Origin: an uncultured Selenomonadales bacterium | Lineage (GTDB): Bacteria; Bacillota; Negativicutes; Selenomonadales; Selenomonadaceae | Assembly (NCBI GenBank): GCA_946408105.1 | Contig: CAMJQS010000002.1 | Coordinates: forward strand, 1 to 59,215 | Length of the DNA stretch: 59,215 bases | Direction: 5' to 3' | Part shown: in pieces, positions 5,751 to 54,763 of the stretch | How positions within the stretch are numbered: the stretch's first letter is position 1 | Layout of the letters: each line of letters opens with the position of its first letter | Notes under the pieces: model-generated | What the model was told of the DNA's origin: nothing | Database searches by the model: none | Seen by the model: only the letters and a program-made list of their open reading frames with translations | Made by a program: the position numbers and the translations under genes

Positions 5751-7364
5751 ATGGAAAAGGCAACTGTTGTTGTAATCGGCGGCGGCGCGACCGGGTTGGG
5801 CATCTTGCGCGATTTGTCCATGCGCGGCGTCAAAGCTCTGCTCGTCGAGAAAAACGATTTGGTCAACGGCGCGAGTTCCCGCTACCACGGACTGCTCCAC
5901 AGCGGCGGGCGTTACGCCGTTAAAGACCAAGAGGCGGCGCGCGAATGCATTATCGAAAACCAAATCATGCGCAAGATTGGCAAGAGTTGTGTCGAACCGT
6001 GCGGCGGAATGTTCACGCGGCTGGACATCGACGACGAATCTTACGAAGAGCTTTGGGTTAAAGGTTGTGCGGACAGCGGAATCGAGGCGACGCCCATAAC
6101 TTTGGACGAAGCTTTTAAATTGGAGCCGCGACTTTCCCGCAAGCATGTTAAGAGCGCGTATCTTGTGCCCGACGCGGCCGTTGACGGTTTCCGCATGTCG
6201 TGGCAGCTCGTCGACTCTTCGAAACGTTACGGCGGACAAGTCAAAACTTATACGGAAGTTATCGGCTTCGACACGGTGAGCGGCGAACTGCGCGGCGTCA
6301 AAGTTCGCGACCACTTCACGGGCGAAGAATACGAAATCGGCTGCGACATCGCGGTAAACGCGGCGGGCGGCTGGGCAGGTTTCGTCGGAAAAATCGCGGG
6401 CGTCGAAATCGGCGTTCAGCCCGACAAAGGAACGCTCATTGCGTTCAATCAAAGAATAGTTAATCATGTCGTCAATCGGTTGCACAAGTCTTCCGACGGC
6501 GATATTTTTGTTCCGCACGGTTCGATAACAATTTTGGGCACGTCGTCGATGAGCGTACCCGACCCCGAAGACACTTCCACGAGCCGCGAAGAAGTCGAGA
6601 GCCTTTTGAAAATCGGCGAGCAAACTTTTGAGGACTTACGCGACTTCAGAATTTTGCGGACGTTCGCGGGCAGTCGACCGCTTTACATTCCGCCCGGCGG
6701 CGCAGTCGGGCGCAGCGCGTCCAGAGGTTTTGCAATCGTTGACCACGAACGCGACGGCTTGAAAGGTTTCTTTACAATCGTCGGCGGGAAGTTCACGACG
6801 TATCGATTGATGGCGGAAAAAATGTGCAATCAAATTTGCGCGAAGCTCGGAAATAAAACTCCGTGTCGAACGGCTGAAGAACCGCTCGTTGAAGAAGTCC
6901 CGCAGGCAGACAAAGACCGCGCCAAAAAATTTTTTCCGTCTTACGGCGTGAATCTTGCGGCGACTCGTTTGGGCGTCGAACGTTTTAAAAAAGTTGTCGA
7001 ACGTTTGGAGGCCGAACCCGAAAGCCGCGAACTTGTCTGCGAATGCGAAAACGTCACGCGCGCCGAAGTCGAAGAAATTTGCAAGGACGACACGAGCTTT
7101 ATCGTCAACGACGTACGGCGGCGTACGCGAATCGGCATGGGCACCTGCCAAGGAAATTTCTGCGCGTTGAGGGCGGCGGCAATTTTTTCTGATTTGGGCG
7201 TCGAACCTTCCGCGAAAAATTCTTTGGAACGCTTGAAAGAATTTTTGCAGGGACGCTGGAAAGGAATTCGCCCCGTGCTTTTGGGGCGAACTCTTCGCGA
7301 AACGGAAATGACGCGCGCGATTTACGAACTTTCCATGAACGTGACGGGAGGCGAGCCGCAATGA
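5751..7364 (+). CDS. glpA: Anaerobic glycerol-3-phosphate dehydrogenase subunit A
   Basis: MEKATVVVIGGGATGLGILRDLSMRGVKALLVEKNDL; C-terminal BFD-like [2Fe-2S] CxCx..C..C region; followed by glpB and glpC. Confidence 0.95.
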   Translation: MEKATVVVIGGGATGLGILRDLSMRGVKALLVEKNDLVNGASSRYHGLLHSGGRYAVKDQEAARECIIENQIMRKIGKSCVEPCGGMFTRLDIDDESYEELWVKGCADSGIEATPITLDEAFKLEPRLSRKHVKSAYLVPDAAVDGFRMSWQLVDSSKRYGGQVKTYTEVIGFDTVSGELRGVKVRDHFTGEEYEIGCDIAVNAAGGWAGFVGKIAGVEIGVQPDKGTLIAFNQRIVNHVVNRLHKSSDGDIFVPHGSITILGTSSMSVPDPEDTSTSREEVESLLKIGEQTFEDLRDFRILRTFAGSRPLYIPPGGAVGRSASRGFAIVDHERDGLKGFFTIVGGKFTTYRLMAEKMCNQICAKLGNKTPCRTAEEPLVEEVPQADKDRAKKFFPSYGVNLAATRLGVERFKKVVERLEAEPESRELVCECENVTRAEVEEICKDDTSFIVNDVRRRTRIGMGTCQGNFCALRAAAIFSDLGVEPSAKNSLERLKEFLQGRWKGIRPVLLGRTLRETEMTRAIYELSMNVTGGEPQ

Positions 7365-8575
7365 AAATTTCTGACGTGATTGTTATCGGCGGCGGGCTTG
7401 CAGGATTTATGGCGGCGGCCGCGGCGGCCGACAACGGACAAAAAGTTTCGCTGCTCACTTACGGTTCGGGCTCGTTGCCTTTGGCGAGCGGCGCGATTGA
7501 TATTTTAAACTCGAAGGCTCCCGACGAAGCGATTAAACTTGTGCTTGAAAATCATCCGTACAAAAAAATCGGCTTGAAAAATATCGACGCGGCCGCAAAA
7601 TTTTTCGTCGACGTGACGAATAAATCTGACTTGCATTATGTCGGAAGGTTGAGCGCGCAAATTCCAATCGTTACGGCCGTCGGCACGCTCAAATATTCTT
7701 GCCTCGTCCCCGAATCGATGGACGCGACGAATCTTGCCGACAAGAAAAAAATTTTTGTCGTCGAGATAAAAGGCTTGAAAGATTTTTACGCCGCGATGAT
7801 TGCCGACAACTTGAAAAAATATTTTCCCGAAAAAATTTTTGAGACCGCCAAACTTGATTTAAATCTTCTCGGCGGGCGCGATATCACTTGCATGGACGCC
7901 GCGCAAATTTTGACGGGCAACGAACAAATCCTTGCGGACGGTCTGAAAACTTTAAATGCAACCGAAGACGACGCGATTATCATTCCGCCGATTTTGGGTT
8001 TGGAAGGAAATTCTTCACGCGCCGCCGTCAAATCGCAACTTCGCGCTCAAATTTTCGAGACGACCTGCTTGCCGCCTTCGCCGCCGGGTATCAGACTTCA
8101 ACGCGCCTTCATAAAATTTTTGCAGAGCGCGGGCGTCAGGATTTTTGAAAACTCAAAAGTCGTTCGCGGCGTCGTCGAAGGAAAAAAAGTTACGGGCGTC
8201 GTCGTAGAAAATTCTGTCCGCGAAAAAATTTTCCGCGCGAAAAAATTTATCTTGGCGACGGGCGGCTTTTACAGCGGCGGAATCGTCATGCGTGAGTTCG
8301 ACAATCCAATCGAGCCGATTTTTGATTTGCCCGTGTTCTATCCTTCGGGCGCGGAAAAGTGGAGCAACAAAAATCTTTTCTCCGACAAGCCGCAAAATTT
8401 TTCGATGACGGGAATTTTCACGGACGAAAATTTGAATCCGATTGACGGCGACGGAAAAGTTTTGTTTGAAAATCTTCACGTGGTCGGCGCGAATCTCGGC
8501 GGCGTTGATAAAATTTTTGAACGCTCGGCGGGCGGCATTTCGATTGCTTCGGCTTACAAGGGGGCGATTTTATGA
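7361..8575 (+). CDS. glpB: Anaerobic glycerol-3-phosphate dehydrogenase subunit B
   Basis: DVIVIGGGLAGFMAAAAAADNGQKVSLLTYGSGSLPLASGAIDIL; ATGA overlap with glpA. Confidence 0.93.
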   Translation: MKISDVIVIGGGLAGFMAAAAAADNGQKVSLLTYGSGSLPLASGAIDILNSKAPDEAIKLVLENHPYKKIGLKNIDAAAKFFVDVTNKSDLHYVGRLSAQIPIVTAVGTLKYSCLVPESMDATNLADKKKIFVVEIKGLKDFYAAMIADNLKKYFPEKIFETAKLDLNLLGGRDITCMDAAQILTGNEQILADGLKTLNATEDDAIIIPPILGLEGNSSRAAVKSQLRAQIFETTCLPPSPPGIRLQRAFIKFLQSAGVRIFENSKVVRGVVEGKKVTGVVVENSVREKIFRAKKFILATGGFYSGGIVMREFDNPIEPIFDLPVFYPSGAEKWSNKNLFSDKPQNFSMTGIFTDENLNPIDGDGKVLFENLHVVGANLGGVDKIFERSAGGISIASAYKGAIL

Positions 8576-22767: not shown

Positions 22768-23564
22768 TGAAAAATTTTATCGTGACGACAACCCGCAAGC
22801 CCGACGCCGCGACGGAAAATTTCGCAGAAAAAATTTCTTTGAAGCTCGGCGGGCAATTTGTTCGCCGCGAAGATTTTTCCTTCGACGCGCTGAAAAAAAT
22901 TCACGGCGCGGAAAATATTTTGCTCGTCAAGAAAAATTCGCTCGGCGTCGTGACGGCGGAGGGCGAATTATTTTTTCACCCGAACACCGCGCACTTGAGG
23001 ATAAAAAATTTGCGCGGCGGCGACGGCGACCGATTGACTGACGCGCTGAAAATTTCCGCCGGCTCGAAAGTTTTGGATTGCACGCTCGGCCTCGGCTCCG
23101 ACGCCATTGTCGAAAGTTTTATCGTCGGCGAGTCGGGCAAGGTCGTCGCGCTTGAAGTTAATCCGCTCATTGCCGAAGTCGTTCGTAACGGCCTGAAAAA
23201 TTTTTCTGAAGACAGCCCGCACATTTTGCAGGCCATGCGCCGCGTCGAAGTCGTCAACGTCGACTGCGAAAATTTTTTGAAGACTTGCGCGGAAAATTCT
23301 TTCGACGTCGTTTACTTCGACCCGATGTTTCGTCGCCCGATAAAAAAAAGTTCGGGGCTCAATCCGATTCGCCCTCTGGCCGACGCTCGTCCGTTGACCG
23401 AAGAAATTATCCGTGAGGCGTGCCGCGTCGCAAAATTTCGCGTCGTCATGAAAGAGCATTCGGGCAGCGCGGAGTTCGCTCGGCTCGGCTTCAAAATTTT
23501 GGACGGAGGAAAATACAGCTCGGTTGCCTTCGGAGTGATTGACAAGGGTTATCGCCTTTTGTAG
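22767..23564 (+). CDS. Class I SAM-dependent methyltransferase (RsmJ-like)
   Basis: VLDCTLGLGSDAIVES...VVALEVNPLIAEVV...DVVYFDPMFRRP. Confidence 0.8.
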   Translation: MKNFIVTTTRKPDAATENFAEKISLKLGGQFVRREDFSFDALKKIHGAENILLVKKNSLGVVTAEGELFFHPNTAHLRIKNLRGGDGDRLTDALKISAGSKVLDCTLGLGSDAIVESFIVGESGKVVALEVNPLIAEVVRNGLKNFSEDSPHILQAMRRVEVVNVDCENFLKTCAENSFDVVYFDPMFRRPIKKSSGLNPIRPLADARPLTEEIIREACRVAKFRVVMKEHSGSAEFARLGFKILDGGKYSSVAFGVIDKGYRLL

Positions 23565-23592
23565 AATCATAAAAAATTTTTCGGAGGCTCAA

Positions 23593-24516
23593 ATGTTTGA
23601 AGTTTTACAGTACAAAGTCGGCGGGCTGCTTTACATGCCGGCTTTCCAAAAAAATATCGTTCAGAAAATTTCGCAAAAAAAATTGCCGCGCTTAACGTCA
23701 GCGGCTTTTTGTTTGGAAGATTCGATACGCGACGAATCACTCGACGCGGCGGAAAAATCTTTGCAGTTCATCTTGCGCGAACTCGACGGCGTGAAAAATT
23801 TGCCGCTTGTGTTCGTGAGGATTCGTTCGCCGCGGCACTTGAAAATTTTTCATGAGGCAATCGGCTCGCGCTCAAAAATTTTGACGGGCTACATCCTTCC
23901 GAAATTCGACATGAGCAACGCGCCCGAATATTTGAAACTCGCGCGCGAAATAAATTTGCCGATAATGCCGACGCTCGAAACCGACCGCGTGGCAAATCTT
24001 TTGACGCGGCGCACGGAACTTTTGTCGCTGAAAGAAATCCTCGACGACTCAAAAAAAATCGTGCTCAACATTCGCGTCGGCGTGAACGATTTTTGCAACC
24101 TGTACGGCCTGCGCCGCGACGTTCGCCGAACGATTTACGACATTGGAATTGTCCGCGACGTGTTGACCGGTATTTTGAACGTCTTCGCGAAAGATTACGT
24201 CGTGGCCGGCTCGGTGTGGAATTTTTTCGGCGGAAATTTTTGGGCGGACGGTTTGCGCCGCGAAATAGAACTCGACCGCTTGAACGGCTTCATCGGCAAA
24301 AGCGCGATTCATCCCGCTCAACTGCCGATTATTTTTGACGGCATGAAAGTTTCGCGCACAGACTTGGAAGACGCCGAACAAATTTTAAATTGGAAGTCGG
24401 ACACGCACGGAGTCTTGAAAAGTTTCGACGGCTCGCGCATGAACGAAGTTAAATGTCACACGACTTGGGCGCGACGCATAAAAATTTTGAGCGAACTTTA
24501 CGGGGTGATTGAATGA
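23593..24516 (+). CDS. HpcH/HpaI aldolase / citrate lyase beta-like protein
   Basis: MPAFQKNIVQKI...AAFCLEDSIRDE...VFVRIRSPRHL...GYILPKFD; IGKSAIHPAQL; GGAGG upstream. Confidence 0.85.
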   Translation: MFEVLQYKVGGLLYMPAFQKNIVQKISQKKLPRLTSAAFCLEDSIRDESLDAAEKSLQFILRELDGVKNLPLVFVRIRSPRHLKIFHEAIGSRSKILTGYILPKFDMSNAPEYLKLAREINLPIMPTLETDRVANLLTRRTELLSLKEILDDSKKIVLNIRVGVNDFCNLYGLRRDVRRTIYDIGIVRDVLTGILNVFAKDYVVAGSVWNFFGGNFWADGLRREIELDRLNGFIGKSAIHPAQLPIIFDGMKVSRTDLEDAEQILNWKSDTHGVLKSFDGSRMNEVKCHTTWARRIKILSELYGVIE

Positions 24517-25619
24517 CTTACACGGCGGAAAAAATTTTGCGCGTCGCCAAAAGATTCAACAACGCGCGGCGAAATTATTTGCTGGTCAATCCGCTGCAGG
24601 GAAAACATTTGCCGACGAGACCGACGGACGCCCTCGACATGATGAACGCGCTCGGAAAAAAAGTTGCGGAAAAATTTTCGTCGGCGCGATTGGTCGTCGG
24701 CTTCGCGGAAACGGCAACGGCAATCGGCGCGGTCGTCGCGAAAAATTTATCGGACGAATGTTTTTACATTCAAACGACGCGGGAAAATTTTGACGGAGCG
24801 TTCGTGGAATTTTTGGAGGAGCACAGCCACGCGCCAGAACAAAAACTTTTTGCCGAAAATCTTTCCGCGCGGATTGATTCGACGAACGAAATTATTTTTG
24901 TCGACGACGAACTTTCGACGGGCAAAACTCTTTTGAACATCGTCCGCCGGCTCAAAAAAATTTTCCCCGCGCTCAACGACAAAAAAATCTGCGCGGCCTC
25001 GATAATCAATCGGCTCACGGAAAAAAATTTGGCGGCCTTGGCGGAAGAAAATATTTCTTGCGTGTGGCTCGTCAAGCTCGAAAAAAATTTCGACGCGGAA
25101 AAATTTTCTGTCGTTGAGGCCGAAAAAGTTTTGCCGCTCAAAAAAAATATTTCCTTCTGCAAAAAAATTTTCACGTTCGACACGCGGCGCGGCGTCAAAA
25201 TCGGCGAATACTTTTCACAATGCGTTGAGCTCGGAAAAATTATTTCGGAAACTCTCAAGCGCGAAAAAATTTGCGGCGAAGTTTTGATTCTCGGCACGGA
25301 AGAATTTATGTTGCCCGTTCTTGTCGTCGGAAAAATTTTGGAGGAAAATTTTTCTGTCGTGACGCACTCGACGACGCGCAGCCCGATTGGCATTTGCGGC
25401 GAAAAAAATTATCCGATTCGTTCCGGCTTCAAGCTCAAAAGTTTTTACGACGCGGCGCGCACGACTTATATTTACAACTTGAAATTTTATGACGCGGCGG
25501 TTATCGTCAGCGACGCCGAAAATTTTTCTGCGGGCTTGGAAGATTTGATTGGCGCGCTGAACGTGCACGGCGTCGACAAAATTTTTTTCGCGGAGGTAAA
25601 AAATGTTCGGGACTTATAA
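24513..25619 (+). CDS. Phosphoribosyltransferase with C-terminal TRSP domain
   Basis: PRPP loop-like IIFVDDELSTGKTLLNIVR; diagnostic THSTTRSPIG; ATGA overlap with previous gene. Confidence 0.85.
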   Translation: MTYTAEKILRVAKRFNNARRNYLLVNPLQGKHLPTRPTDALDMMNALGKKVAEKFSSARLVVGFAETATAIGAVVAKNLSDECFYIQTTRENFDGAFVEFLEEHSHAPEQKLFAENLSARIDSTNEIIFVDDELSTGKTLLNIVRRLKKIFPALNDKKICAASIINRLTEKNLAALAEENISCVWLVKLEKNFDAEKFSVVEAEKVLPLKKNISFCKKIFTFDTRRGVKIGEYFSQCVELGKIISETLKREKICGEVLILGTEEFMLPVLVVGKILEENFSVVTHSTTRSPIGICGEKNYPIRSGFKLKSFYDAARTTYIYNLKFYDAAVIVSDAENFSAGLEDLIGALNVHGVDKIFFAEVKNVRDL

Positions 25620-26652
25620 GCCGCAAGACGTGACGATTTTATTAAAAGACATCAGCGGGCTGGTCGAGCCGCTCCCGACGCGCGAACGAGAAAAATTAAT
25701 TCAAGCGGGTCGGCACTACTCGGAAATGTTGCCGCTTGAATACGAGCCGTCGGAAAAATATTTGCAAGCATACTTCGACGCGCTCAATCGTTACGGAAAA
25801 ATCACGGCGGCCGCCGTCGCCAACGTCGCCGAAAAAATTTTCCTCGACAAGGGCAAAAAAATCGCGCTGGTTTCTCTCGCCAGAGCCGGCACGCCGATTG
25901 GAATTTTGATTAAACATTACTTGGAGAAAAAATTTTCTTGCGACGTAAAACATTACACGATTTCGATTATTCGCGGCGTCGGTATTGACGAAAACGCCGT
26001 GAAATTTATTTTGGCTCGGCACGCGCCCGAAGAAATTCAATTCGTCGACGGGTGGACGGGCAAGGGAGCAATTCAGCGCGAACTTTCTACCGCCATGAAA
26101 AATTTTCCGCAAATTGATTCGGGCTTGGCGGTTTTGAGTGACCCGGCGAGCGTCGCGGAAAAGTGCGGCACTCACGAAGATTTTTTAATCGCAAGCTCGT
26201 GTTTGAATTCGACGGTAAGCGGACTTTTGAGCAGAACTTTTTTGCGCAAAGATATCATCGGCGCGCAAGATTTTCACGGCGCGGCTTTTTATTCCGACCT
26301 TCGCGAAAAAGATTTGACTTACCAATTCATCAACGCGATAGAAAAAAATTTTGACGACTTGCCCGAAATAAAAAATTCCGCCGTGGAAAAAAACAGCGGG
26401 CTTGCCGAGGTAAAAAAAATCGCCGAAGATTTTTCAATCGACGACGTGAATTTAATCAAGCCCGGAATCGGGGAAGCGACGCGCGTTTTGTTGCGTCGTC
26501 TGCCGTGGAAAATTTTGGTGCACAGCTTGCACGACGAAAAAAATTTGGGACATCTTTATCAGCTTGCAAAGGAGAAGGACGCGCCGCTCGAAGTTTATCC
26601 GCTGAAAAATTACAAGGCGTGCGGATTGATTCGACGGCTCGCCGATAACTGA
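25603..26652 (+). CDS. StiP-like / PRTase protein with C-terminal PELOTA-like RNA-binding domain
   Basis: IALVSLARAGTPIGILIKHYLEKKF...HYTISIIRGVGIDENAVKFIL...FVDGWTGKGAI; C-terminal PWKILVHSLHDEKNLGHLYQLAKEKDAPLEVYPLKNYKACGLIRRL. Confidence 0.8.
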   Translation: MFGTYKPQDVTILLKDISGLVEPLPTREREKLIQAGRHYSEMLPLEYEPSEKYLQAYFDALNRYGKITAAAVANVAEKIFLDKGKKIALVSLARAGTPIGILIKHYLEKKFSCDVKHYTISIIRGVGIDENAVKFILARHAPEEIQFVDGWTGKGAIQRELSTAMKNFPQIDSGLAVLSDPASVAEKCGTHEDFLIASSCLNSTVSGLLSRTFLRKDIIGAQDFHGAAFYSDLREKDLTYQFINAIEKNFDDLPEIKNSAVEKNSGLAEVKKIAEDFSIDDVNLIKPGIGEATRVLLRRLPWKILVHSLHDEKNLGHLYQLAKEKDAPLEVYPLKNYKACGLIRRLADN

Positions 26653-26653
26653 C

Positions 26654-27358
26654 ATGAAAATTTTATTCGCCTGCGATTTGGACAACACGCTGATTCATTC
26701 TTACAAGCACCGCCGCGCCGACGACATTTGCGTAGAAATTTACGACGGACGCGAGCAAAGTTTCATTTCGCCAAAAGCTTTGGACTTGATAAAAAAAATT
26801 TCTGCGCGAATTTTTTTTGTGCCCGTGACGACCCGTTCAATCGTGCAGTATCGGAGAATTTTTTGGACGGAAAATTTTTGTCCGCGCTTTGCAGTCGTCG
26901 CGAACGGCGCATTTTTTTTGGACGGCGATAATCGGGAAAATTTTTTGCGGGAAGTCGTCGCGCCTTACGAGGAGGAATTGAAACTTCAGCTTGCGGCGGC
27001 GGACGAAAAAATTTTTTCAATCGCGCGAATCGTCGACGAGAGCTTTTTATTTTTGAAGTGCCGCGAAGACTTCGACGCGGAAAAAATTTCCTTCGACACG
27101 AGCTTAAACGTTCAGCACTTCAGGAAAAAAATTTATCTCTTCCCGCCGCGACTGAACAAGGGCGAGGCTTTGAAGTTGCTGACAAAAAAATTTTCGCCCG
27201 AAAAAATTTTTGCGGCGGGCGACAGCGAAATTGATTTGCCGATGTTGGAGCTTGCCGACGTTGCCTTTGCTCCGAAAAATTTGCGCGGAAAAAATTTTAC
27301 GGAATTCGTCGACGCCGAAGATTTTTTGGAAAAAATTTTTACGTCGATAACTTTTTGA
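26654..27358 (+). CDS. HAD-superfamily hydrolase
   Basis: FACDLDNTLIHS (DxDxT), VTTRS, FAAGDSEIDLPMLELAD. Confidence 0.88.
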   Translation: MKILFACDLDNTLIHSYKHRRADDICVEIYDGREQSFISPKALDLIKKISARIFFVPVTTRSIVQYRRIFWTENFCPRFAVVANGAFFLDGDNRENFLREVVAPYEEELKLQLAAADEKIFSIARIVDESFLFLKCREDFDAEKISFDTSLNVQHFRKKIYLFPPRLNKGEALKLLTKKFSPEKIFAAGDSEIDLPMLELADVAFAPKNLRGKNFTEFVDAEDFLEKIFTSITF

Positions 27359-51618: not shown

Positions 51619-52947
51619 GTGAAAAAAAATTTGGTAATGGGTTCGGCAAGCGGCTACGATTGGGATACTTTGGAGCCGTTCATTACTTCGTTCGTCATGA
51701 ATGTTAAAAATGCCGAGCTTGTGCTTTTCCTTAAAGACGTTTCGGATTTTACTATCGACCGCTTGAAACGTTGCGGGAAAGATGCATTGAAAATCGAGCC
51801 GTTTGAGCACAGAGAACTTAAAAATATTGGCATTGACCGTTTCAAAAATTTCAAAAGATATATCGACTTGCACGGCGACGAGTACGAACAAATTTTTATC
51901 ACCGACACCCGCGACGTGATTTTTCAAAAGGACATCTTCGAGTGTTTTAAAGACTGCAAAAATTTTCTCGGATATTCGACGGAAGCAGACGACATTCGCG
52001 GGAGCAAAACGGGTAATCGATTAAATTACAACTGGATTGCGGACAGTTTCGGCAAAGAAGAAGCAGATAACCTTCTGGACAAAAAAATCGTTTGCGCCGG
52101 CGGAGCTGTCATTGGAACGCCGCGCGAAGTAAAAATCTTCCTGGAAATATTTTTGTCGAAAAATTTTTCGAGTGAAAAATTTGCTTTTGACCAAGCCGCG
52201 TTCAATTATCTTGTGTGGAATAATCTTTTGCCGATTGAAAATCTTATAGAAAATGACATAGAGAGCGGCGAAATTTTTTCGATGGCAACCTTCGTCTTTT
52301 TGTATCCGATAAATATTCGAGGCGGAAAAATTTTGCGCGGCGACGGCGGCATTCCTGCCGTTGTTCATCAATACGACCGACATCAGGAATTGGTTAAAAT
52401 TGTCGACGGAATTTATCGCGCCAAAGATTTTCAAGTTGAGGAACACTTTACCGACACGCAAAGTGCGATTGAACAGGTGATATCCCTTTTGCGAGTGAAT
52501 AAAACGGGCGCGGCCACTCGTCTTTTCCTGAGAAATTTTTTGGGCAAAACGGACTTCAACAGCTACAAAGGAATTCTTATAAAACTTTGGGATATTTCTT
52601 CAAAGAAGCCGCTTTCTCAAACGCTCGAACTTTTGGAGCTGGCTGTTCAAGATGCTTTAAAATCTGTTCATGTTCTTTCAAATATAGATTTGTCTGCAAT
52701 TTACTCAATCTTGAAACGCGCCGAACAAAACGGACGCCCTATCGACGCCGATTTTAAAATTTATTTTGCGAATTTTCTTTTGATAATCGCCGAACAATGT
52801 CTCAAGTCAAATCAGCCGGACAGATATTTTGAATTTATAAATTTGTTTAAAGGACTCGGCGTGCCGCTCGACGAAAAATTTTATCGGTTGGAAGCAGAGG
52901 CAAACAGAATTTTGAATCGGAGGAAACTTTTTGAGCAAGAAAATTAA
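51619..52947 (+). CDS. Glycosyltransferase-like protein, copy 1
   Basis: GTG start; GT-A-like FITDTRDVIFQKD; 442 aa; paralog of 53435-54763. Confidence 0.7.
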   Translation: MKKNLVMGSASGYDWDTLEPFITSFVMNVKNAELVLFLKDVSDFTIDRLKRCGKDALKIEPFEHRELKNIGIDRFKNFKRYIDLHGDEYEQIFITDTRDVIFQKDIFECFKDCKNFLGYSTEADDIRGSKTGNRLNYNWIADSFGKEEADNLLDKKIVCAGGAVIGTPREVKIFLEIFLSKNFSSEKFAFDQAAFNYLVWNNLLPIENLIENDIESGEIFSMATFVFLYPINIRGGKILRGDGGIPAVVHQYDRHQELVKIVDGIYRAKDFQVEEHFTDTQSAIEQVISLLRVNKTGAATRLFLRNFLGKTDFNSYKGILIKLWDISSKKPLSQTLELLELAVQDALKSVHVLSNIDLSAIYSILKRAEQNGRPIDADFKIYFANFLLIIAEQCLKSNQPDRYFEFINLFKGLGVPLDEKFYRLEAEANRILNRRKLFEQEN

Positions 52948-53434: not shown

Positions 53435-54763
53435 GTGAAAAAAAATTTGGTAATGGGTACGGCAGGCGGCTTCGATTGGGATACTTTGGAGCCGTTCGTT
53501 ACCTCGTTCGTAATGAATGTCAAAAGTGCCGAGCTTGTGCTTTTCCTTAAAGACATTTCGGATTTTACGCTTGACCGCTTGAAACGTTGCGGGAAAGGTG
53601 CATTAAAAATCGAGCCGTTTGAGTACAGGGAAATTAAAAATATTGGTATTGACCGTTTTAAAAATTTCAAAAGATACGTCGACTTGCACGGCGACGATTA
53701 CGAACAAATTTTCATAACCGACACCCGCGACGTAATTTTTCAAAAGGACATCTTCGAATCTTTCAAAGACTGCAAAAATTTTCTCGGATATTCGACGGAA
53801 GCAGACGACATTCGCGGGAGCAAAACGGGTAATCGATTAAATTACAACTGGATTGCGGACAGTTTCGGCAAAGAAGAAGCAGATAACCTTCTGGACAAAA
53901 AAATCGTTTGCGCCGGCGGAGCTGTCATTGGAACGCCGCGCGAAGTAAAAATCTTCCTGGAAATATTTTTGTCGAAAAATTTTTCGAGTGAAAAATTTGC
54001 TTTTGACCAAGCCGCGTTCAATTATCTTGTGTGGAATAATCTTTTGCCGATTGAAAATCTTATAGAAAATGACATAGAGAGCGGCGAAATTTTTTCGATG
54101 GCAACCTTCGTCTTTTTGTATCCGATAAATATTCGAGGCGGAAAAATTTTGCGCGGCGACGGCGGCATTCCTGCCGTTGTTCATCAATACGACCGACATC
54201 AGGAATTGGTTAAAATTGTCGACGGAATTTATCGCGCCAAAGATTTTCAAGTTGATGAACGGTTTATTGACGAACGCAGCGCGATTGAACAAACGCTTCC
54301 TCTTTTGCGAGCGAACAAAACGGATGCGGCCACTCGTCTTTTCATTAAAAATTTTTTGGGCAAAACGGACTTCAGCGGCTACGGCAGAATTCTTATAAAA
54401 CTTTGGGATATTTCTTCAAGGAAGCCGCTTTCCCAAACGCTTGAACTTTTGGAGATGGCTGTTCAAGATGCTTTAAAATCTGTTCATGTTCTTTCAAATA
54501 CAGACTTGCTCGCAATTTACTCAATCTTGAAACGTGCCGAACAAAACGGACGAACCGTCGACGCCGACTTTAAAATTTACTTCGCGAATTTTCTTTTGAT
54601 AATGGCCGAACAATGTCTTAAGTCAAAACTGGCGAACGTATATTTTGAGTTTATAAATTTGTTTAAAGGACTCGGCGTGCCGCCCGACGAAAAATTTTAT
54701 CGGTTGGAAGCGGAGGCGAATAAAATTTTCGGCAGGAACGGACGAGGCATTGGCGGCTTGTAA
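53435..54763 (+). CDS. Glycosyltransferase-like protein, copy 2
   Basis: GTG start; central ~158 aa identical to copy 1. Confidence 0.7.
   Translation: MKKNLVMGTAGGFDWDTLEPFVTSFVMNVKSAELVLFLKDISDFTLDRLKRCGKGALKIEPFEYREIKNIGIDRFKNFKRYVDLHGDDYEQIFITDTRDVIFQKDIFESFKDCKNFLGYSTEADDIRGSKTGNRLNYNWIADSFGKEEADNLLDKKIVCAGGAVIGTPREVKIFLEIFLSKNFSSEKFAFDQAAFNYLVWNNLLPIENLIENDIESGEIFSMATFVFLYPINIRGGKILRGDGGIPAVVHQYDRHQELVKIVDGIYRAKDFQVDERFIDERSAIEQTLPLLRANKTDAATRLFIKNFLGKTDFSGYGRILIKLWDISSRKPLSQTLELLEMAVQDALKSVHVLSNTDLLAIYSILKRAEQNGRTVDADFKIYFANFLLIMAEQCLKSKLANVYFEFINLFKGLGVPPDEKFYRLEAEANKIFGRNGRGIGGL

Follow-up and report, generated by a model that had tools for sequence, protein, structure and literature searches.

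This analysis concerns a cluster of four genes in the genome of a gut Selenomonadaceae bacterium, available as a draft of 1.85 Mb (61% complete, 232 contigs). The window is the whole stretch of DNA analysed, namely positions 1 to 59,215 of contig CAMJQS010000002.1 (59,215 nucleotides; assembly GCA_946408105.1). Within it, positions 23593–27358 are filled by four plus-strand genes joined by a 4-nucleotide ATGA overlap, a 17-nucleotide overlap and a 1-nucleotide gap, which encode an HpcH/CitE-like C–C bond lyase (CCL), a phosphoribosyltransferase (PRTase) of the PRTase_2-TRSP type, a StiP-PELOTA protein and a HAD phosphatase (Table 1). All four open reading frames are intact and agree in coordinates, strand and spacing with the operon described in the initial annotation of this DNA. 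Judged by its sequence, the set is an ordinary version of the biosynthetic module of the Ter system, the description of which is reportedly due to Anantharaman, Iyer and Aravind in 2012 (as cited in PMC7824862 and PMC8115787). According to PMC7824862, the system relies on PRTases together with HAD enzymes to make a nucleoside or nucleotide signal, possibly sensed by TerB and TerD.

Table 1. Genes and signals of the module, with positions in the window
Feature	Position	Strand	Basis
Sigma-70-like promoter TTGACA-17-TAGAAT	23539..23567	+	11/12 consensus matches
GGAGG ribosome-binding site of the lyase gene	23583..23587	+	Sequence reading; GGAGG or GAGG in aligned loci
HpcH/CitE-like C–C bond lyase (CCL)	23593..24516	+	PF15617
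PRTase_2-TRSP phosphoribosyltransferase	24513..25619	+	PF15609 + PF12500; PRPP loop VDDELSTGKT intact
StiP-PELOTA: PRTase-fold domain (predicted) + L7Ae/PELOTA-like C-terminal domain	25603..26652	+	PF11202 + PF15608
HAD-IIB phosphatase	26654..27358	+	PF08282 + TIGR01484

The proposed domain assignments (CitE-like, TRSP, StiP/PELOTA and HAD) were borne out by a search with Pfam models, in which the matches exceed their cut-offs, those of the first three proteins by far. The lyase matches C-C_Bond_Lyase (PF15617) with 314 bits (cut-off 28.4), the second protein matches PRTase_2 (PF15609) with 148 bits and TRSP (PF12500) with 73 bits, and the third matches StiP (PF11202) with 344 bits and PELOTA_1 (PF15608) with 104 bits. 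For the HAD protein, the score for Hydrolase_3 (PF08282) is 52 bits against a cut-off of 20.9, and TIGR01484 is also above its cut-off. Beyond the HAD-IIB assignment, NCBIfam gives distant CitE and PRTase similarity only, and nothing specific was returned by PADLOC or PHROGs.

The catalytic motifs of these proteins are intact. The closest solved structure to the lyase is human CLYBL (E=9e-8). Residues E129 and D166 of the lyase, kept in 90% or more of its 28 homologues, align with the metal ligands of CLYBL and are putative metal ligands themselves. In the PRTase_2-TRSP protein, residues D132, E133, T136, G137 and T139 of the loop for phosphoribosyl pyrophosphate (PRPP) are invariant across 40 homologues, and in four distant homologues D131, D132, E133, T136, G137 and T139 are all invariant. 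The loop is retained even at 24% identity, in an enterobacterial plasmid homologue. The AlphaFold2 model of this protein (predicted local distance difference test, pLDDT, 94.7) gives a predicted phosphoribosyltransferase fold, its top Foldseek matches in the PDB being adenine PRTases (E=2e-7). In the HAD protein, D8, D10, T12, K169, D190 and D194 are invariant in 28/28 homologues. Within 24513–25619, the TRSP half can be aligned in register with the PRTase_2 half (GFAET with GTEE, TTRE with TTRS), a weak hint at an old duplication. The related idea of TRSP as a degenerate second repeat of the PRTase was set aside as suggestive at most, hhalign giving P=2.6e-4 yet a probability of 19%.

The third protein carries a name at odds with what follows. 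Both Pfam (PF11202) and NCBI label StiP a cysteine protease, and the label extends to homologues in plasmid records (more than 2,500 records' worth of matches). Taken literally, these database names, which are what speaks for a protease, would make the operon a protease-plus-metabolism unit and not a nucleoside pathway. This is very improbable. No invariant cysteine is found among 45 StiP homologues: the enterobacterial homologue has other residues at both of the nearly conserved positions, C200 and C340, as does a congener (L032) at C200. The pattern that is conserved (LARAGTPIG, ISIIRG, FVDGWTGKGA) is PRTase-like in look. A confident AlphaFold2 model (pLDDT 92.3) retrieves 14 PDB matches by Foldseek at E<=0.001, 12 of which are phosphoribosyltransferases or PyrR (mostly of the HPRT/PyrR type), while the remaining two belong to one capsule-synthesis multienzyme and none is a protease. 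HPRTs are matched with probability 1.00 and E ~1e-4. As the TM-scores are moderate (~0.5 by target length), the type I phosphoribosyltransferase fold predicted for StiP is supported by fold-level evidence only. Moreover, the loop at the position of the PRPP loop reads DGWTGKGA, without the usual acidic pair, so that catalytic activity of StiP is uncertain. The C-terminal domain is weakly L7Ae-like by sequence, and PDB sequences searched with the StiP profile gave only weak L7Ae matches, to this domain. The lack of a conserved cysteine and the predicted fold suggest that the name 'cysteine protease StiP' is misleading. The unannotated 15-kb record MT836648.1, a 'Bacteriophage sp.' entry from human faeces, also encodes (at 7238–8275) a StiP protein 56% identical to that of the window, which may be phage-borne or reflect bacterial contamination.

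Upstream of the lyase gene lies a promoter-like site, the -10 box of which includes the stop codon of an upstream methyltransferase gene. The pattern TTGAC-N-17/18-TANAAT precedes the lyase gene at 13/13 congeneric loci tested, including one with no methyltransferase gene upstream, and its hexamers are retained although the spacer is variable. The chance of such a match is ~0.0005 per region, for a pattern picked after it had been seen and for loci that are related. The pattern was not seen at the equivalent position in L062 or in two basal congeners (L035 and L036). The case that the module has a sigma-70-like promoter of its own is thus strong, though not formal, and the four genes would constitute a transcription unit of their own.

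The same region bears on the upstream genes, which the initial annotation had noted there instead of TerD/TerC or ATP-grasp genes. The RsmJ-like methyltransferase gene adjoins the module in many congeners, is not beside it in others (L032 and L035), and is widespread in relatives' genomes that have no module. Besides the window, the acyl-CoA ligase and the exported protein were seen upstream of the module in L062 and L063 only. By this distribution and by the promoter that intervenes, the three genes are ruled out as members of the pathway and are regarded as neighbours. Elsewhere in the window, positions 51619–52947 and 53435–54763 hold two consecutive open reading frames, each of 442 codons and starting with GTG, which may represent a tandem duplication.

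The operon had been described as lacking ter genes and an adjacent ATP-grasp gene. This holds for the window, where no ter gene lies in the neighbourhood of the module and no ATP-grasp gene is adjacent. The first part does not extend to the genome: three TerD matches (best 287 bits) are found on C99, a contig of 4.7 kb that also bears two glycosyltransferase-like genes and an LpxB-like gene (named from our own reading and from Pfam matches of the congeners' equivalents). With the module on contig C2, physical linkage to ter genes was not found in the host genome. The survey of this 61%-complete assembly gave no match to TerC and, for ATPgrasp_Ter (PF15632), only sub-threshold matches within a 1081-residue CarB-like frame; at this level of completeness, neither non-detection is taken as conclusive.

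StiP and TerD also co-occur across genomes. In the same-genus genomes first sampled, TerD is present in 37/37 and StiP in 15/37; a further 13 StiP-carriers of the genus all have TerD (13/13), so that TerD accompanies StiP in 28/28 congeners. Class-wide, StiP was found in 46/345 genomes. Outside the genus, TerD is present in 22/23 StiP-carriers versus 0/23 same-family non-carriers (Fisher p=6e-12), and in the five genera with both states (g26, g27, g35, g42 and g44) StiP and TerD are always present or absent together. StiP, then, is found almost only with TerD, the reverse not being required in the genus. Since the association is strong despite genomic separation, it supports a functional and not merely positional link. 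ATP-grasp_Ter follows a similar trend, with 12/28 StiP-carrying versus 1/28 StiP-lacking congeners (p=9e-4); it adjoins the module in two of the twelve (G033 and G192) and is encoded elsewhere in ten. Together with the domains, the association of StiP with TerD upholds the earlier proposal of a link to a predicted, Ter-associated nucleoside pathway.

The separation seen in the host is the rule in its genus. Judged by contig position, TerD and the module are far apart or on separate contigs in 27/28 StiP-carrying congeners, some contigs being short and a few of the 27 therefore uninformative. That the module is never ter-linked in the genus is nonetheless refuted by one congener, G202, in which TerD lies ~5 kb away. 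Since StiP sequences from the genus fall into a single group of the tree (support 88), the separated arrangement probably arose within the genus. A scan of public genomes returned at least 591 relatives; for the best 80 loci by similarity, many of them on short stretches, TerD lies within the fetched stretch in 45 and an ATP-grasp gene is nearby in 17, so that its lack beside the operon is not unusual.

These data bear on a reading close to that of the initial annotation, which had pictured a ter-free, minimal or rewired pathway. Its fuller version is a module rewired in the genus into a self-contained, separately promoted and TerD-independent unit that makes a different nucleoside-like product and dispenses with the ATP-grasp step. 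The absence of ter linkage in 27/28 congeners, the promoter and the failure to find ATP-grasp_Ter in 16/28 StiP-carrying congeners all fit it. Such rewiring is nevertheless unlikely: TerD is present in the host and in every genus genome examined, family-wide StiP is found almost only with TerD, in sister genera (L150-L152), as on an Alkaliphilus plasmid, modules lacking ATP-grasp adjoin TerD, and the catalytic motifs match those of ter-linked versions. The notion of a ter-free pathway is thus not sustained.

Several loci depart from the standard arrangement. StiP-PELOTA is encoded alone, next to LytB and S1-domain genes, in congeners G035 (L027:9206-10255) and G013 (L037:8782-9966), with no lyase, TRSP or HAD gene nearby (L027 checked with Pfam), and extra sequence separates the lyase and TRSP genes at some loci (L024 and L034). 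Such loci could be taken to mean that a ter island was acquired laterally and that the module is its decaying, non-functional remnant. There is little room for this, given that the four open reading frames of the window are intact with conserved active sites, that the hexamers of the promoter, unlike its spacer, are conserved, and that StiP is 72–86% identical among its homologues in the genus. Gene fusions were also noticed. In the ter cluster of congener G014, TerD is fused to a HEPN_Swt1-like domain (L041:4273-5427), in the company of a P-type cation ATPase, a nucleoside phosphorylase-like gene and a family 2 glycosyltransferase. Single open frames also seem to join lyase and TRSP (L086:7824-10001) or TRSP and StiP (L131:4855-7044), which would be further fusions of pathway steps.

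The module is probably the biosynthetic arm of the Ter stress response, which in this genus has become separated from ter and placed under its own promoter. For every reaction, for the order of the steps, for the product and for the link to TerD at the protein level, we infer the following scheme. The CitE-like lyase would make or trim a small acid precursor, onto which the PRTase_2-TRSP protein would transfer ribose-5-phosphate from PRPP. StiP may perform a second PRTase-like transfer, or may bind the product or RNA, and the HAD enzyme would remove the 5' phosphate. An amide-type bond could be added by an ATP-grasp ligase, which some congeners encode next to the module or at a distance from it. 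Sensing or use of the product would fall to TerD proteins encoded at other loci.

Several points weigh against assigning the module to the Ter response. Many TerD genomes of the genus have no StiP, which means that ter does not need the module, and the searches did not find ATP-grasp_Ter in the 16 StiP-carrying congeners mentioned above, or TerC in the host's assembly. The co-occurrence counts were made without a full phylogenetic model, related genomes not being independent. No published enzymatic or expression data on the module were found, nor, in the literature searched, the identity of the Ter biosynthetic product or more recent studies of StiP or the Ter metabolite. The new points are modest: the module's separation from ter in a single genus, its conserved promoter, the counts of co-occurrence and the case against StiP as a cysteine protease. 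Being compact, separately promoted and located apart from ter, this four-gene version is a convenient starting point in the search for the Ter product.

Comparison with known systems places the module as follows. It has the CitE-like lyase, PRTase_2-TRSP, StiP-PELOTA and HAD proteins of the Ter biosynthetic module, with TerD in the same genome; it differs in not being adjacent to ter genes and in that neither ATP-grasp nor TerC was found in the 61%-complete assembly. Its gene order is shared by the ter-linked modules of Selenomonas sp. ND2010 (L065) and of further Selenomonadaceae (L147-L152 and L154), CCL-(ATP-grasp)-TRSP-StiP-HAD, but these lie directly downstream of terD genes, which the window's module does not. 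Several of these family members read TerD genes-CCL-ATP-grasp-TRSP-StiP-HAD, and others are identical minus ATP-grasp. In other families of the class, the order is TerD x3-TerC-CCL-[PRTase_2-TRSP-StiP-PELOTA fusion]-HAD. On the Alkaliphilus plasmid pB6464 (L172), the order CCL-PRTase-StiP-HAD-TerD-TerD-AIM24-P-type ATPase is ter-linked, unlike that of the window. The IncHI2 ter locus (L173, Enterobacter plasmid pGENC414) has ATP-grasp-PRTase-hypothetical-StiP-CCL beside terZABCD, a gene order different from that of the window. Both plasmids encode a homologous PRTase, StiP and lyase, StiP being only 36–51% identical to that of the window. Set beside these systems, the module is a real, intact and dispersed member of the known Ter biosynthetic module.

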